IMG/VR virus record: IMGVR_UViG_3300033148_001711
Span: 1 to 39,984 of that record
Origin: a virus
DNA: 39,984 bases
Reading direction: 5' to 3' (one strand)
This document shows positions 567 to 8,534 of the stretch, piece by piece. The notes under the pieces are model-generated. The model was not told the DNA's origin and made no database searches. It was given only the letters and a program-made list of their open reading frames with translations. The position numbers were made by a program, and so were the translations under genes. Position 1 is the first letter of the stretch. Each line of letters opens with the position of its first letter.

Positions 567-1912
567 ACCATCTTCACAATATCCCCGACGACCATGCCGG
601 CCAGAGATTCTTTCTTCTTTAACAGTCTGTGTATTTTCTCGTCGATCGTGCCCCGTGCTAGGATGTCGATGTAGGTGACGTTCCTAGTTTGACCGATTCT
701 GTGGGTTCTGTCTTCGGCTTGCACCCTTTCACCGTAGCTGTAAGAGTTGGACATGAACACGCAGTATGAGGCGCTTGTGAGGTTGATTCCGATTCCGGCG
801 GTTTGGAGCTGTCCAATGAACACCCTGGTGTTGTCATCAGTGTTGAATTGTTTAACTTTCTCAATTCTTTCGTCAGTTCCTCCGTGCACCGATACGTACC
901 CGATACTAAGCTTTCGTAATGCTTGCTCGACCATGGCGATTTCCCTCCTAAAACGACAGAATACCACAACCTTAGCCTTATGCGGTAGACCATCAATGAA
1001 ATCAATAAGCCAATCAACTTTAGGGTTCTTCTTAAACTCATGTGCTATGCCCTCCGTGTCTTTAGTGAAGCCTGCTGTGATCTGGCTGAACCGCATCAGT
1101 CGTGTCAGTACGATCGGTGCTGTTACAACAGCGTCTTTGAACTCGTATATGAAATCTTGTTTGAGTTTGGTGTAAACCTCTTGCTGTTCTTTGGTTATGT
1201 CAATGTGTACTACTTGGTAGAGTTTGTCTGGCAGGTCTAGGCATTCGTCTTTGGTCTTACGCACAGCGCACATGTATATGCGACGCTTGAGGTCGTCAAG
1301 GTTGCGCCATTGGATAGGTTGTTTGTTCATGTAGCCACCCATAACGGCGTACCGGCCTCTGAAACGATAGTATGATATGCCGAAGATACGTGCGTCAAGT
1401 ATCTTATACTGGGCGAATATATCCAGTGGCGAGTTCATAATGGGCGTCCCACTCATTATGAGCTTGTTCTTTATCACTGTGGATATGTCGTAGCAAGCCT
1501 TTGACTGGAGGGATTTGAAGTTCTTAACGGCTGTACTTTCGTCCAGTATAAGATGATCGAAGCCTTTGTCTCTAAGCTCTTTGTTCAGTGTGCGTGTGCT
1601 CTCATAGTTTATGATGTATATCTGTGCGTCCCACGATAGTTTCTTCAAGCGTGCTGATCGGCTTCCCAGTAGCATTATGCACGATAGATCGCTGTGTTTC
1701 CTGATCTCGTCAGACCAATTTTCTACCAATGTATTTGGGCATACTACAAGCGCCTTGTACTTCTTATTCTTTTCTATGTTGTATGTTATTACGTCGAGGG
1801 CAATCTTCGTTTTTCCGAGGCCAGGTTCTGCGAATAGCCCGTAGTACGCCTCGTCTTTGATGAGGTTAAAGCACTCAAGCTGATGGTCGAAACACTTTGT
1901 CTTAAATTTCAT
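563..1912 (-). CDS. SNF2-family DEAD/DEAH-like helicase (superfamily 2)
   Basis: ATP-dependent DNA translocase of the SNF2/RapA type, expected to act on phage DNA during replication or recombination. The Walker A motif EPGLGKT is at residues 29-35, the Walker B/DEAH-like box LDESTAVKN at about 123-131, and motif III SGTP at 154-157. The C-terminal RecA-like lobe ends with motif VI QAEDRTHRIGQ at 398-408. At 449 residues it is a compact phage-type member with no accessory domain. Its 5' end overlaps the HNH gene by 11 bases, and its TGA stop forms an ATGA with a tiny downstream ORF. SNF2 helicases next to a VRR-NUC nuclease are a common pairing in phage replication modules. Confidence 0.95.
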   Translation of the reverse strand: MKFKTKCFDHQLECFNLIKDEAYYGLFAEPGLGKTKIALDVITYNIEKNKKYKALVVCPNTLVENWSDEIRKHSDLSCIMLLGSRSARLKKLSWDAQIYIINYESTRTLNKELRDKGFDHLILDESTAVKNFKSLQSKACYDISTVIKNKLIMSGTPIMNSPLDIFAQYKILDARIFGISYYRFRGRYAVMGGYMNKQPIQWRNLDDLKRRIYMCAVRKTKDECLDLPDKLYQVVHIDITKEQQEVYTKLKQDFIYEFKDAVVTAPIVLTRLMRFSQITAGFTKDTEGIAHEFKKNPKVDWLIDFIDGLPHKAKVVVFCRFRREIAMVEQALRKLSIGYVSVHGGTDERIEKVKQFNTDDNTRVFIGQLQTAGIGINLTSASYCVFMSNSYSYGERVQAEDRTHRIGQTRNVTYIDILARGTIDEKIHRLLKKKESLAGMVVGDIVKMV

Positions 1913-2414
1913 TTAGCCTCGCAAATTCTCCATAATGTTTCTTAGCTGCTTCGTTATATGCACGTGCCGCTTGTTCCTCTATAACATAAGCTCCTATATG
2001 AAAATTGTTTGTCCCCAACCATATACACGCCTTCCATAGTTTCCTTTCTTTGCTCCAACTAACCCCTTTAAACCTAGAGCTAAACTTTGTCGTTGACTTC
2101 TTTTGATTCCGTGTATTTTCAGACATTGTGCATATTCTTAAATTAGAGCGCCTATTATCTAACGGATCTCCGTTTATATGATCCACAACACCGTCAGTAA
2201 TGCCCATTATAAAACGAGACAGCTCATCTTCTCCAGACCCTTTATAATAGAGGTATCTACATGAGCGCGCGTGCCCACGTCCTAATCCGTTTTCAGCGTA
2301 GTGCCATTTCCTAGGTTTTCCGTAGTTTCTATCCCTTTTGTCTCTACGTGTGACCAGTTCGTAGTCTTCGTCATCTATAATAGCGTGTTTTCCTTGTGTG
2401 AGTTCAATCTTCAA
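1902..2414 (-). CDS. HNH homing-type endonuclease with AP2 DNA-binding domain
   Basis: A free-standing selfish endonuclease of the HNH_3-AP2 type. The HNH core is at residues 78-103 (VDHINGDPLDNRRSNLR followed by EN.RN). A C-terminal AP2/ERF-like domain at about 113-168 begins SRFKGVSWSKERKLWKA and ends YGEFARLN. At 170 residues it matches the family's usual size. It sits exactly between the helicase and VRR-NUC genes and overlaps both by 11 bases, so it has inserted without breaking either frame. Such genes cut related phage genomes lacking the insertion and spread by repair; a cellular role is not implied. Confidence 0.92.
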   Translation of the reverse strand: MKIELTQGKHAIIDDEDYELVTRRDKRDRNYGKPRKWHYAENGLGRGHARSCRYLYYKGSGEDELSRFIMGITDGVVDHINGDPLDNRRSNLRICTMSENTRNQKKSTTKFSSRFKGVSWSKERKLWKACIWLGTNNFHIGAYVIEEQAARAYNEAAKKHYGEFARLNEI

Positions 2415-3417: not shown

Positions 3418-3723
3418 CTATTCCTCACTTATCTCTTGGTTGTGTTTGATTATGTCATCTTCGTCCATGCCCTCTTGGTATGCTTGAAGAACCACATCAG
3501 TGATATCCTCACGCACCCCTATGGTTAAGCACCTTATCGTGTCGTACCATTTCTCATCTTTGGCTTGTTCTCTGGGCATGCTCACAAACAGCCCCTTTGA
3601 GCCGTCCATCACTCTTAAGCCTTTGATCAACAGCACACCATTGACTGTTATGTCTACAAACGCTTTGAGTGGTCGGTCAGTCTCAAAGCGATACATACGC
3701 TGTACTTGGATATCTAAGTCCAT
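3418..3723 (-). CDS. spoVG: SpoVG family regulator
   Basis: SpoVG proteins are small DNA- and RNA-binding regulators, first known from Firmicutes but widespread. Residues 20-80 align with the family by eye: KAFVDITVNGVLLIKGLRV, then MDGSKGLFVSMPRE, then a cis-acting helix ending DITDVVLQAYQ. At 101 aa it is the usual size, with an acidic C-terminal tail. In a phage it could tune early transcription or replication, or imitate the host protein. It is preceded by a perfect hairpin and followed by the promoter at 3369-3397. Confidence 0.85.
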   Translation of the reverse strand: MDLDIQVQRMYRFETDRPLKAFVDITVNGVLLIKGLRVMDGSKGLFVSMPREQAKDEKWYDTIRCLTIGVREDITDVVLQAYQEGMDEDDIIKHNQEISEE

Positions 3724-4154: not shown

Positions 4155-4694
4155 CTATTCACTGCATATAACAGTAGTTACAGGCTTAACAGAATATTGA
4201 CACTTAATCTTCTTAGCTGACAATAACTTTATAATCTCATTCATTACCTTTTCTTCGCCTACATACTTCACAAGACCTAAGACCTTAATCCTAAGCGTCT
4301 TGTCCTCTTTGCCTATGTCCATGTTCTTGGTCATACGGGTAAAGAACGCTGTTGTGCCTTTGTAAGACAGCATCAATCGTCTTACGCGCAAATGCCTATG
4401 ATCAAGTGACAATAGCCTACATATCTCACGGCTGTCACTCTTGAGCTTAGCCCGTGTGCCGTGTAGAGTGCCACTTGCTTCCATGCTAGAGCTAGGCTCA
4501 CGCAACGACACTACGCCTAACTTCCTCAATGCCGACGGCACTGACGCTACCACACGCTTCAATGAGAACCCTATCTCAAAGGTTATGCTACCAATGTTTA
4601 AATCACTGGATATTCCCAACACCTCATCAACATAAGTGTTGTCGATACACCATTGAAACAATGGCTTTGCTACTTTCTTCGTTTTCTTCTTCAT
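4155..4694 (-). CDS. Hypothetical basic protein, 179 aa
   Basis: I do not recognise it. It begins with a Lys-rich tail (MKKKTKKVAKP). The central region has many Arg (REICRLLSLDHRHLRVRRL), which would suit nucleic-acid binding. The C-terminal part resembles an alpha/beta unit ending TTVICSE. Its start overlaps the stop of the zinc-finger/HTH gene by 4 bases, so the two are probably co-translated and might act together. Confidence 0.7.
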   Translation of the reverse strand: MKKKTKKVAKPLFQWCIDNTYVDEVLGISSDLNIGSITFEIGFSLKRVVASVPSALRKLGVVSLREPSSSMEASGTLHGTRAKLKSDSREICRLLSLDHRHLRVRRLMLSYKGTTAFFTRMTKNMDIGKEDKTLRIKVLGLVKYVGEEKVMNEIIKLLSAKKIKCQYSVKPVTTVICSE

Positions 4695-5317
4695 GCGTCT
4701 CCCCCTTGTTTACAGATATAAAACATTTTACGGATAGTAATCTCACGGCACTCACTATGTGCAGTCCATGACTTACTCTCCCTTAGTTGTTCAACATACT
4801 CGTCGAGTAAGTTGCACAGTTCTCGCCTAAGAATATCAGGCAATACCACTTGCTTCCTGTATGGTCGCTTGACCATGTTGTTTTGATCAATGCTCACTAA
4901 CACTTTCTCTACTGCCTTTGCTCTTAACTGCTCAGGCAACATCACATCACTCACACCTGCTTTGACTATCTTCATGATACTCACGGCTGTCGGATTCACC
5001 TCACCCTTTCGCCACTTCACTACCATGTTTGCTGATGTGCCTATCAACTTTGCTAACTTGTAATCGCCCATCTTGTACTGCTCTTTGTAACTGATGATGT
5101 CCTGCCTCACTGTTTCATGGATACTCTTTGGTATCATATGCGTGTATCCCATTTTCCTTTGCCCCCTTTTCATTTTACTCCACTTGCGTCGGTTAGTATC
5201 AATACATCTTTGACATTGAAATCTATCTGTTTCTTTGTGCTTTAAGCACTGTGTACAAATGCCAAGACGCTTCGCCTCTATTACTGCCTTTGCTCTCAGT
5301 TCGCTGTTATTCGCCAT
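4691..5317 (-). CDS. Zinc-finger and helix-turn-helix DNA-binding protein
   Basis: 208 aa, likely a transcription regulator. Residues 21-38 hold two CxxC pairs (CTQC and CQRC), followed by a basic stretch (RRKWSKMKRGQRKMG) as in small phage zinc fingers. Residues about 86-110 (YKLAKLIGTSANMVVKWRKG) form a typical XRE-like HTH: two helices, the TSANMV recognition turn and a conserved Trp-Arg-Lys-Gly. It lies directly downstream of the E1-like gene across a spacer with a branched hairpin. It is a candidate ligand for the palindromes in the control region; that is inference. Confidence 0.75.
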   Translation of the reverse strand: MANNSELRAKAVIEAKRLGICTQCLKHKETDRFQCQRCIDTNRRKWSKMKRGQRKMGYTHMIPKSIHETVRQDIISYKEQYKMGDYKLAKLIGTSANMVVKWRKGEVNPTAVSIMKIVKAGVSDVMLPEQLRAKAVEKVLVSIDQNNMVKRPYRKQVVLPDILRRELCNLLDEYVEQLRESKSWTAHSECREITIRKMFYICKQGGDA

Positions 5318-5389: not shown

Positions 5390-6061
5390 CTAATTTGGTA
5401 TGTTAATATGTGTTTGTGCTTGGTTCTCAAAGTCATACAGCACAGCACTATGATACGGCTTCTGCTCTGCCATGAGCCGTAATGAGTTAGCTATGCCCGA
5501 CGCTATCCATAACACATTGTACATAACTGCTTTCTGTGTGCATGGCAATTCACTTGCTTCGCTATCCGACCATAGATACCCTGTGTAAAATTGTTTCTGC
5601 TCTGTCTTTGCAAGGTCTACTGTGTACACTTCTGCCTGTTGCCCACCCATACGACCATCAATGAACCCTTGCACATCAACATTACGGCGTATGCTCTCGT
5701 ATATCTCTGTGCGTACAGCCATGCTATCAACAGCCATTATCACATAGTCCGTGTTAATTCCTATGTCCTTTGTCCACAAGCAATCGTTTACAGTTAATGG
5801 AACATTCTCAAAGTCAATGAGCATAGTGTTCAACGCTAATGCCTTGTTCATACCAATGTCCATGTACCGATAGAACTGATTGCTAATGTTTTCTTCTGAC
5901 ACTCTATCATTGTCATACACTTTCATCTTGTGAAAGCCCATCTTAGCCAATGTCAATGCAGTAAAGCTACCGATAGCACCACAACCGATTATGGTTATGG
6001 TGCTATCAAAGATACGCCTATCCACAAGGTCGGCTTGTCTTGACCTGCGTAGATTAGTCAT
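5390..6061 (-). CDS. ThiF/E1-like adenylating enzyme of a ubiquitin-like system
   Basis: E1/ThiF/MoeB superfamily enzyme, predicted to adenylate the C-terminus of the neighbouring ubiquitin-like protein and pass it on as a thioester. The nucleotide-binding loop IIGCGAIG is at residues 24-31. The acidic strand YDNDRV (49-54), Asn58, Gln62 and Lys73 occupy the family's ATP/Mg sites, and AVDS (110-113) is also present. Cys174 in LPCTQKA matches the conserved catalytic cysteine of E1-like enzymes. At 223 aa it is a minimal Rossmann domain with no zinc CxxC pairs and no extra domain. The position of the usual ThiF adenylation Arg is Asn61. It overlaps the JAB gene by 8 bases. Confidence 0.92.
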   Translation of the reverse strand: MTNLRRSRQADLVDRRIFDSTITIIGCGAIGSFTALTLAKMGFHKMKVYDNDRVSEENISNQFYRYMDIGMNKALALNTMLIDFENVPLTVNDCLWTKDIGINTDYVIMAVDSMAVRTEIYESIRRNVDVQGFIDGRMGGQQAEVYTVDLAKTEQKQFYTGYLWSDSEASELPCTQKAVMYNVLWIASGIANSLRLMAEQKPYHSAVLYDFENQAQTHINIPN

Positions 6062-6938
6062 ATAGATACCCTGCTTTCTTTACTTCTTCTGATGTTAATC
6101 GGTGTGCGTGTTTAGTGCTATGTGTTTTCTCTGAACCAATCGTATAGCACTCGTTTGTTCTATTGTTCATGTACCCTATAATGCAATACGAGTAGTCATA
6201 GAACAATGTGATAATACCCTCTTTCTCTCCTGCTACGAGCAATGCTTCAAAGTCGTAGTCCATTGCTAGTCCGTCCATGATGTAGTCGTCCCATGCGTCA
6301 TAGCCACCTTGATAATATGATATAGGCGTAACAGTGCCATGCTCTTGTCTTAATGCTGGTTCATGTGTCTTAACTCTATCATAATTGCTTTTAACCTTGT
6401 CTTCATCTGCCACTGCGTCTACTGGTACTTCAACTTCAATGTTGCATATGTCAATACGCAAAGGCTCATACAAATGCACACTGCCAAGCATATCGCCACG
6501 CTTATTCACGACGAGAGATACTGCATACTCGCCTACTTGTAACTCGTCGTAGTTCTCGTCATCAGTGCCACTATGGAACACACTCATGTCCACATGACTA
6601 TGCCAATGGAACTTTAACTTGGTTGTGTCCTTATCATCATTGACACAATCAGTATTAACCTTGTTCAACTCATCTTCTGGTATGTCCGTTGTGCCACCTG
6701 TGTTGTACTGATTAGGCAAGAACACTTCTGTTACCTTGAACTCTATCGACCTATCATCATAGTCAATGCGTTCAACCATGCCTACACCACTGCATTCGTC
6801 AGGGCTGAACTTGTGTGCATACGCTATCATCTCTGCATACGGCTCAGGCTCAATGCTCAGTGTTATCTTGTGTGCTACTTGATACTGTTCTTCTGTTTCT
6901 GGGTCGTCATCTTGTGGTGTTTGTTCTAAGTGGTTCAT
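6054..6938 (-). CDS. JAMM/JAB metallo-isopeptidase (deubiquitinase-like)
   Basis: Zinc metalloprotease of the JAB1/MPN+/Mov34 fold, predicted to trim the ubiquitin-like precursor and/or remove it from targets. The full JAMM signature is present: Glu48 (in DECSG), then HSH at 113-115, seven residues, then SGTD with Ser123 and Asp126. The domain covers about residues 20-165. The remaining 130 residues (to 294) are an acidic, Tyr-rich extension I do not recognise. It is coupled to the E2-like gene by a 4-base overlap and to the E1-like gene by 8 bases. An ordinary prokaryotic JAB protease, for example of the NlpC-linked tail type, is unlikely in this context. Confidence 0.92.
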   Translation of the reverse strand: MNHLEQTPQDDDPETEEQYQVAHKITLSIEPEPYAEMIAYAHKFSPDECSGVGMVERIDYDDRSIEFKVTEVFLPNQYNTGGTTDIPEDELNKVNTDCVNDDKDTTKLKFHWHSHVDMSVFHSGTDDENYDELQVGEYAVSLVVNKRGDMLGSVHLYEPLRIDICNIEVEVPVDAVADEDKVKSNYDRVKTHEPALRQEHGTVTPISYYQGGYDAWDDYIMDGLAMDYDFEALLVAGEKEGIITLFYDYSYCIIGYMNNRTNECYTIGSEKTHSTKHAHRLTSEEVKKAGYLYD

Positions 6939-8242
6939 GCACTTGTCCTTTCGAGTTGTGTATTAGGGTGTGGTACTACCTGTCCATCTTCTGTTACTGT
7001 TCTATACCTATGGTGTGGGTGGTTGCTTACGCTGTACGCATCGCTATAGGCAAAGCCATTTCCCCTGTCATGATACCAGCACTGCCATTCGTCATCTTCT
7101 ATGTTGCGTACACATTGTGTACAGTTGAAACAGCCATTGTCAGGGAACTCATTGCTCTCTAACCTTTCATAAGTGTCAGGACAGCGTGTACATTCGCAAT
7201 CGTCGTTGCTCCTATCACAATCACTGCACCAATCTTCACGGTCACATTCGCACTCTTCAGAGCAACACTGCCGACAGCCGTCATAGTCGCCATTGTACCA
7301 ATTCATTACTGATTGATACCAGCCGTCTTGGTCGCATTTGCTTAGGAACTCTAAGCATATGTGCATTAAACCTACAATGTCCACTTGATCCGATAGACCA
7401 TAGATAGTTTCATCATAAGACCCCCAGCAACAATGCCCACTGTTGTTCACATGTGGGTGCTGATAGCCGTTGTAGGTATTGCCGTCTAACTTAATCATGT
7501 TGATACTCTCAGTGCCATGTGGCACAAAGGGTATATCAACACGATAGTTGCCCATTGCCACTTCATACCAGCACCCATCTCTATCTTCAAATGAGATAAT
7601 GATAGGCTTAGTGATGATACGCACAGTGTTCTCTAAGAACTCAATGCTCTCTACACGCTTCTCAATCTTCTTGTACTCTTTGAGATTAGGCTCTACCATA
7701 TGTTCCATACGCTTTTCCATATAGTCCATTGCACGCTTAGCATTACGCATATCGTTCTCTCTCTGGTCTACTGCGTGCTTTATCCTGTTCCTTTGGTTCT
7801 GCATGAACATATACAACACATGCTCTTTGCTAACTCCTGTTGTCTTAGCCGTCTTGAAGCATTGCACATAGCCTTCCCATCTCTCACACACACTGGGTAT
7901 TTCACATTGAAACACTTGCCTGTCATTGCCGTCTATGTGCATGCTAAGGATTACGCCCACATGCCCTTTCTTAACACTGCCCCATGAGTGTGTGGCGTCT
8001 ACCACTGTCACATATGTGCCAATGGGTATCTCTGGTGTAGGCTCTGCTGGTGGTGCTTGTTCCGTGCCACTCTCGTATAGTGGGTCTTCTGCAAGTTGTG
8101 TGTATATAGGCTGTGTCGGTTGCTCATGCACAGGTGTAGTTTGCTGTGGCAATTCTAACTCAGGTATTATGTCGTCTTGTAGTGCGTCTTCGTCTATCTC
8201 ACGCACAATGTCTGGGTCTAATTGTGTATTTGGGTCTACCAT
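6935..8242 (-). CDS. E2-like conjugating protein with cysteine-rich C-terminal domain
   Basis: 435 aa, using the ATG at 8242 behind AAAGGAAAGAT rather than the in-frame ATG at 8296. Residues about 1-73 are acidic, Pro-rich and disordered. Residues 74-130 look like an SH3/KOW-type beta barrel (YVTVV..., KKGHVGVILSM). Residues 145-205 are a charged coiled coil. Residues about 206-316 resemble a UBC/E2 fold with HPHV at 262-265, Gly269 and a Cys271-Cys272 pair. The E2 spacing (HPN...G..C) makes Cys272 the likely thioester cysteine. Residues 323-388 contain 14 cysteines in several CxxC-like pairs, probably zinc-binding. It sits between the Ubl and JAB genes. Confidence 0.75.
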   Translation of the reverse strand: MVDPNTQLDPDIVREIDEDALQDDIIPELELPQQTTPVHEQPTQPIYTQLAEDPLYESGTEQAPPAEPTPEIPIGTYVTVVDATHSWGSVKKGHVGVILSMHIDGNDRQVFQCEIPSVCERWEGYVQCFKTAKTTGVSKEHVLYMFMQNQRNRIKHAVDQRENDMRNAKRAMDYMEKRMEHMVEPNLKEYKKIEKRVESIEFLENTVRIITKPIIISFEDRDGCWYEVAMGNYRVDIPFVPHGTESINMIKLDGNTYNGYQHPHVNNSGHCCWGSYDETIYGLSDQVDIVGLMHICLEFLSKCDQDGWYQSVMNWYNGDYDGCRQCCSEECECDREDWCSDCDRSNDDCECTRCPDTYERLESNEFPDNGCFNCTQCVRNIEDDEWQCWYHDRGNGFAYSDAYSVSNHPHHRYRTVTEDGQVVPHPNTQLERTSA

Positions 8243-8259
8243 ATCTTTCCTTTCGTGTT

Positions 8260-8325
8260 TGTGGCACAGCCCACAGTGTTCCGTGAGCCGTGCCACAGGG
8301 ATACCAGTGACTAAGCTACGCTTAG
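8260..8325 (-). repeat. Inverted repeats between Ubl and E2-like genes
   Basis: Arms TGTGGCAC (8260-8267) and GTGCCACA (8290-8297) form an 8-base stem around a 22-base loop. A second small hairpin CTAAGC (8311-8316), TAC, GCTTAG (8320-8325) covers the Ubl stop codon. Neither has a U-tract. The spacing suggests control of E2 translation or mRNA stability relative to the Ubl. Confidence 0.6.
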
Positions 8326-8534
8326 CCCCTGCCCCCTTTCATCTTGTTAGCAAGGGATATGACACCACCCTCTTGCACTGATGTATTGCCAGTTGCAGGC
8401 ACATTGTTCAATGTGATACTGCGACCATCTTCACTGACACCTGCAAGCTCTAACACTTGCTCAATCGTAGTGCCTGCTTCTACATTCACTTCAACTACCA
8501 CTTCGCCCATAGGGGCTACTTTAACCATAACCAT
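8322..8534 (-). CDS. Ubiquitin-like / MoaD-ThiS-like beta-grasp protein
   Basis: A 70-aa small modifier. The ATG at 8534 is nine bases after GGGAG; longer in-frame starts would run into the upstream gene. The pattern is a beta-grasp fold: two strands (MVKVAPMGEVVVEVNVEAG), the helix TTIEQVLELAGV, a strand SITLNN, and a last strand in which GGVISLANKMKGG closely follows the MoaD/ThiS/phage-Ubl ending. Gly67-Gly68 are followed by Arg69-Gly70, so the protein looks like a precursor needing a two-residue trim before activation. It heads the E2-JAB-E1 cluster. Confidence 0.88.
   Translation of the reverse strand: MVMVKVAPMGEVVVEVNVEAGTTIEQVLELAGVSEDGRSITLNNVPATGNTSVQEGGVISLANKMKGGRG

Follow-up and report, generated by a model that had tools for sequence, protein, structure and literature searches.

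A probable four-gene ubiquitin-like conjugation cassette in a phage genome, with counterparts in crAss-like and other phages

In bacteria, most of what is known about ubiquitin-like conjugation comes from host-defence and plasmid operons. In the Bil system, BilA, BilB, BilC and BilD are the ubiquitin-like modifier (Ubl), the E2, the JAB peptidase and the E1, respectively, and BilC matures BilA by exposing its C-terminal glycine (PMC11354881). Cap2 of the cyclic-oligonucleotide-based antiphage signalling system (CBASS) is an E2-E1 fusion, which conjugates the CD-NTase itself (PMC10097602), while the plasmid-borne PRTRC cassette can be equated, in our own reading, with operon type 6d of Iyer et al. 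2006 (PMC1779556). Phage-encoded Ubl and JAB proteins have been described in tail assembly, i.e. TAPI (Ubl) and TAPK (JAB-NlpC) of lambda and T1 (PMC1779556). In the present study we analysed the whole of a viral record, IMGVR_UViG_3300033148_001711 of IMG/VR (39,984 bases; hereafter the window), which carries four adjacent genes encoding a Ubl, an E2-like protein, a JAB/JAMM metallopeptidase and a minimal E1, i.e. the components of a probable modifier cycle.

The four open reading frames (ORFs) occupy the minus strand from position 8534 to 5390, as described in the initial annotation of the window, and the short overlaps reported there were found to be 4 bases (E2/JAB) and 8 bases (JAB/E1). 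Purine-rich stretches resembling Shine-Dalgarno sequences are present upstream of Ubl, E2 and JAB. The gene order, Ubl-E2-JAB-E1, had been considered different from that of Bil; however, BilABCD is lettered in the same order (PMC11354881), and it is the architecture of the proteins that differs. Two closely related contigs (L002 and L004) retain this order, and a fragment (L010) carries Ubl and E2 followed by the first part of JAB, at which point the contig ends. Identity among close relatives is 57-66% for Ubl, 53-60% for JAB, 61-66% for E1 and 31-34% for E2. The ratios of nonsynonymous to synonymous differences per site (pN/pS) between relatives ranged from 0.11 to 0.39 for Ubl, 0.23 to 0.34 for E1, 0.34 to 0.47 for JAB and 0.52 to 0.63 for E2; all genes and pairs gave values below 0.65, with synonymous sites near saturation in most pairs. 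All four genes are under purifying selection. Chance ORFs are ruled out by conservation and by the family matches described below.

According to a confident structural model, the Ubl has a beta-grasp fold with a C-terminal glycine, in agreement with the annotated GGRG ending. The AlphaFold2 (AF2) model, obtained from seven sequences, reached a predicted local distance difference test score (pLDDT) of 83.3, with the arrangement strand-strand-helix-strand-strand. Foldseek returned Caldiarchaeum ubiquitin as the best match, together with human ubiquitin, NEDD8, SUMO and TtuB, and VIA-align gave Z scores of up to 9.9 (SAMP1: Z 9.6, 1.5 A over 65 residues). The protein terminates in NKMKGG-RG (the dash follows the last glycine) and the general ending is NK(M/S)KGG, after which four relatives have RG, C, N and C; the GG pair is kept and the residues beyond it are variable.

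JAB and E1 both surpass the cut-offs of their Pfam families (Prok-JAB and ThiF). On the basis of its metal site and family match, JAB is a predicted JAMM peptidase: H113, H115, S123 and D126, numbered as in the initial annotation, do not vary among 10 diverged phage or viral JABs, and E48 is almost invariant there. The best solved relative of a phage-JAB profile was Caldiarchaeum Rpn11 (2.1e-10). The single JAB sequence produced no match in the PDB, although the alignment profile did, and a direct JAB search found nothing in phage records. A JAB of the same family was also observed in a 95-kb phage contig (L013, 1878-2588), in which no E1 was found. The E1 is assigned to the E1/ThiF superfamily by its adenylation domain, nucleotide-binding motif and predicted catalytic cysteine, Cys174, which is invariant in all 11 aligned E1s; UBA5 and ThiF were the best matches of the E1 profile.

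The E2 assignment, which the initial annotation had derived from an HPHV...GHCC block, was upheld in part. The block reads GYQHPHVNNSGHCCWGSY, and comparison with the relatives identified the second cysteine, C272, as the conserved one. H262, P263, H264, C272 and G274 are invariant across six aligned E2s; the cysteine is present in 16/16 of the cassettes compared, and the H-x-H block in most of them. The low-confidence model predicts a helix, a beta-meander, the HPHxC block and two helices. No Pfam family was matched by the protein, PDB sequence searches with E2 profiles returned no E2, and a Foldseek comparison of the model with PDB and BFVD gave nothing significant, the model being too poor to count against a UBC fold. 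In a second comparison, performed with VIA, nearly all of the rows spanning residues 184 to approximately 306 were UBC or RWD folds, including the Knl1 RWD domain (Z 6.1, 3.7 A, 91 residues), a Plasmodium E2 (Z 4.6, 3.7 A, 98 residues), the bacterial E2 of 8tyz (Z 3.9, 4.0 A, 88 residues), UBE2E2, Pex4, UbcH5, UbcH7, Ufc1 and Tsg101. VIA scores below Z 8 are singly weak, and the argument rests on the agreement of the match list. Since the model is poor, yet residues 184-306 match almost exclusively UBC/RWD folds and the HPH...C block is conserved, we consider with moderate confidence that the 435-residue protein is an E2 with a UBC-like core.

The C-terminal part of this protein contains tandem cysteine units, of which 2-3 are present per close relative, versus 0.04-0.14 in shuffled sequences. 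Such units are also located C-terminally in a jumbo-phage E2 (L007, 4710-4916), with their number varying between relatives, and none were found in three other lineages tested. Direct E2 searches gave no match in viral contigs or phage records; a Prok-E2_B search of 96 genomes was uninformative, as it matched nothing, controls included. The coordinates of all features are listed in Table 1.

Table 1. Coordinates of the cassette genes, their predicted functional sites and the adjoining gene in the window
Feature	Position	Strand	Evidence or remark
Ubl, 70-aa beta-grasp modifier	8322..8534	minus	AF2 model, Foldseek, VIA, conserved GG
E2-like protein of 435 aa, with an N-terminus that varies, a helical coiled-coil stretch, a UBC-like core and a C-terminus rich in Cys	6935..8242	minus	
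UBC-like core of E2, residues 184-306	7325..7693	minus	Low-confidence model and VIA matches
E2 active-site block HPHVNNSGHCC, H262-C272	7427..7459	minus	Conservation; C272 predicted catalytic
Cys-rich predicted Zn-binding region of E2, residues 323-388	7079..7276	minus	Two C-x2-C-x(4-8)-C-x-C units
JAB/JAMM metallopeptidase, 294 aa	6054..6938	minus	Pfam Prok-JAB 1.3e-6
JAMM zinc motif H113-S-H115-x7-S123-x2-D126	6561..6602	minus	Conserved in diverged JABs
Minimal E1 of 223 aa with one ThiF/adenylation domain (residues 15-186)	5390..6061	minus	Pfam ThiF 1.3e-18
Predicted catalytic Cys174 of E1 (LPCTQKA)	5540..5542	minus	Invariant in 11 phage E1s
Helix-turn-helix (HTH) protein with Cys pairs	4691..5317	minus	Adjoins E1; left outside cassette

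The cassette is not peculiar to the phage of the window. Diverged relatives, reached via E1 searches and alignments, carry E2-JAB-E1 with a Ubl-like gene upstream; these comprise IMG/VR contigs L012, L014 and L015, plus L005, the gut phage MT835544, Flavobacterium phage FpV4, and the crAss-like L008, L026, L027 and L028. In crAss001 the cassette consists of gp79 (Ubl with a C-terminal extension), gp78 (E2), gp77 (JAB) and gp76 (E1). The survey of relatives proposed in the initial annotation found the four genes together, with their order kept in related contigs and as a diverged set in unrelated phages. Of the 98 phage records with the neighbouring crAss001-type primase, 45 were matched by gp79 and likewise 45 by gp78; the tallies of these two proteins by organism name are identical, and these groups also appear in the searches with JAB and E1. 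Many of the crAss-like records are near copies, with about a dozen distinct lineages behind them. The crAss001 and FpV4 genes are annotated merely as "thiamine biosynthesis protein", "metalloprotease domain containing protein" or "hypothetical protein", and no description of a crAss-like ubiquitin cassette was found in the open-access literature searched (preprints were outside its scope). As the occurrence of the same gene set in unrelated viruses suggests, the common crAss-like phages of the gut among them, protein tagging in the course of infection may be practised by many phages.

Relationships among these lineages were examined for E1 and E2. In the E1 tree, which has long branches, the phage E1s group weakly (84/89) with PRTRC next (83/69); the phage cluster needs 2 label changes and a single origin is unsupported. 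Comparison of E2-core profiles strongly paired the window with L014/L015 (97%) and crAss with FpV4 (98.6%), but was weak elsewhere (62% and below), so one E2 family uniting all lineages is not supported. Two further observations concern gene arrangement. In crAss001 a gene encoding an unknown protein (gp75; L026, 8336-9148) directly follows E1, and a similarly placed gene is present in L008, L027 and L028. A contig binned in a Polyangiaceae metagenome-assembled genome (L024, 4044-6561) has the order Ubl (...NGGQ), E2, E1, JAB, with an E1 lacking a cysteine at the usual place.

Ubls with residues past the last glycine (GG-RG, GG-C, GG-N, G-A, SG-IVA, or SG with a long extension) are accompanied by JAB. 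PhiXhv-12 and Ep032, two jumbo phages, have E2 and E1, and their Ubl-like protein encoded upstream of E2 ends exactly in SGG, whereas no JAB was detected anywhere in 227 kb. Because tailed Ubls come with JAB and those already ending in GG occur without a detectable one, this pattern fits the role of JAB as a Ubl maturation enzyme; it is probably also the deconjugating enzyme.

Gene content, order, motifs, conservation and co-inheritance, as well as the predicted Ubl fold, were established directly. When combined with the known chemistry of the E1, E2, JAMM and Ubl families, from which we infer each biochemical step and the biological role, they argue for a dedicated, reversible ubiquitin-like conjugation cycle, to which we assign a probability of approximately 0.7. 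In such a cycle, JAB would trim the residues following the last Ubl glycine, E1 would adenylate the exposed Gly-Gly and then hold the Ubl as a thioester on Cys174, and E2 would take it over on Cys272 and transfer it to amino groups of target proteins, from which JAB would remove it again. The Cys-rich E2 tail might coordinate zinc and contribute to target choice or to holding the Ubl, perhaps in place of an E3, although this zinc-binding, E3-like role is a guess. The likelier targets are replication proteins or early host proteins, because the cassette is located among replication and regulatory genes and the whole set is kept in many crAss-like phages. The complete phage-encoded cycle claimed in the initial annotation is backed by family models for JAB and E1, by the Ubl model and by the recurring four-gene set, with E2 at moderate strength; of the checks proposed there, the family search placed JAB and E1 but not E2, and structure prediction gave a confident Ubl fold and, for the E2 core, a poor model whose matches were almost all UBC/RWD folds.

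Several observations weigh against a conjugation cycle. The E2 model is poor (mean pLDDT 46), and neither sequence searches nor Foldseek matched it significantly to any known E2. No target is named by any sequence evidence, and a Cys-bearing E1 on its own is also compatible with sulfur transfer. The case of a Ubl lacking both tail and JAB comes from two near-identical jumbo phages, which count as one; moreover, the Ubl candidate of L005 ends in ...NALAA, with no terminal glycine, and several diverged Ubls have one glycine instead of two.

Of the alternative explanations, phage-borne defence or exclusion, in which the cassette would act like Bil and tag virion parts of competing phages, survives best, but we regard it as unlikely. 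Its lettered gene order and predicted chemistry are those of Bil, and a Bacteroides strain carrying the hankyphage is reported to have a Bil-like system (PMC12135933); however, the set lies in a regulatory and replication arm, is found whole in many crAss-like phages, and has a single Ubl, a single-domain E1 and no CEHH motif. It is less probable that the cassette serves counter-defence, with Ubl, E1 or E2 as decoys, or with JAB stripping host tags, in order to jam CBASS Cap2 or Bil. A decoy would need less than a full cascade with every catalytic residue conserved, and jumbo phages retain E1 and E2 with no detectable JAB, even though the window E1 matches CBASS E1-E2 models over the adenylation core (6.1e-14) and JAB matches E1-E2/JAB models. 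Slightly more doubtful still is a sulfur carrier, with E1 and a Ubl thiocarboxylate thiolating a nucleotide, DNA or a cofactor and JAB processing the carrier: ThiF, ThiS/MoaD and SAMP-like relatives do carry sulfur, but a conserved E2-like gene with an active-site cysteine stands between Ubl and JAB, the best solved JAB relatives are Rpn11-type deubiquitinases, and no sulfurtransferase was present among the neighbours scanned (the neighbourhood scans covered part of the window genes). A PRTRC-type plasmid-maintenance module carried by phages is very improbable. In its favour, PRTRC_ThiF ranks with the better matches of E1 (1.5e-11), PRTRC E1s form most of the named plasmid matches and they come next to the phage E1s in the weakly supported tree; against it, the scores lie far below the cut-offs, the E2 family and gene order differ, and the neighbours scanned included no ParB (see below).

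The conjugation cycle may be part of a wider picture, which we propose only tentatively and consider somewhat less than an even chance: that several unrelated tailed-phage groups, including crAss-like phages, share a phage lineage of Ubl conjugation distinct from Bil, CBASS and PRTRC, that this system belongs to the infection programme, its targets being replication or host proteins, and that in the lineage of the window a zinc-binding tail of E2 replaces an E3. If the cycle is real, phages that carry and keep such a complete set would be running infection by reversible protein tagging. This is directly testable, as crAss001 and FpV4 are named isolates with named hosts.

The initial annotation had placed the cassette in the early block of a phage. 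The phage nature of the window is evident from terminase and portal genes in its plus-strand structural arm; the early block we infer from the place of the cassette in the minus-strand arm, beside genes for an SNF2 helicase, a SpoVG homologue and the HTH protein. This arm also encodes an HNH/AP2 endonuclease, and a tRNA search detected no tRNA in the window. Relatives also carry an HTH gene beside E1; in the window (4155-5317, minus strand) E1 is followed by the HTH/Cys-pair protein and an unknown protein of 179 residues, with a similar arrangement in L002, L003 and L004. The SpoVG homologue (3418-3723, minus strand; Pfam 3.9e-18) belongs to a family of bacterial DNA-binding regulators. The HNH endonuclease with an AP2 domain (1902-2414, minus strand) adjoins the helicase gene, and may be a mobile insertion, because L002 and L004 have no such gene directly before the helicase.

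Among the described systems, the lambda-type tail module resembles the cassette in that Ubl and JAB are phage-encoded, but it lacks E1 and E2; it was ruled out, as the window set has both and is located in the other genome arm. In PRTRC cassettes, too, Ubl, E2, JAB and ThiF are each encoded by a gene of their own and carried by mobile elements, and the Ubl also has a glycine with a short tail (GAG-TKA). In contrast, the PRTRC E2 is Prok-E2_D without HPH, the order is Ubl-x-E2-E1 with JAB elsewhere, and there is a ParB partner. The window E2 gave no match to Prok-E2_D (PF14460) at E<=1 (control PRTRC B, 6.5e-60), the window JAB scored 11.4 bits against a PRTRC_A cut-off of 101.8, the window E1 scored 44.1 against a PRTRC_ThiF cut-off of 144.75, and no ParB was found among the neighbouring genes scanned. 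The likeness to CBASS lies in the adenylation core of E1, which is related to Cap2, and in the E1, E2 and JAB chemistry; however, E1 and E2 are separate ORFs in the window, a dedicated Ubl is present, and the neighbours covered by the Pfam scan included no CD-NTase.

The cassette resembles Bil in layout, with the same four genes, and the predicted maturation of its Ubl by JAB parallels the action of BilC on BilA. BilA, however, has two consecutive Ubl domains, whereas the window Ubl has one beta-grasp domain; BilD combines inactive and active adenylation domains with a Cys domain, whereas the window E1 has one ThiF domain; and BilB carries the CEHH motif (Glu, His and His at +6, +8 and +13 from Cys), whereas the window E2 has no His at these positions after C272, and instead has HPH before the cysteine and a Cys-rich tail. 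The cassette is thus predicted to work like Bil, yet by Bil's defining features it is not a member; it likewise lacks defining features of CBASS Cap2/3 and PRTRC. The operon of Caldiarchaeum differs in that it belongs to a cellular organism, an archaeon, and comes with a separate RING E3, and its E2 has no sequence-level match to that of the window. Nevertheless, it is a similarly minimal set of ubiquitin, E2, E1 and an Rpn11-type JAMM protein, and Caldiarchaeum proteins are the best Foldseek match of the window Ubl and the best PDB match of the JAB profile. The minimal phage set also offers a useful comparison for the origin of eukaryotic and archaeal ubiquitin systems.

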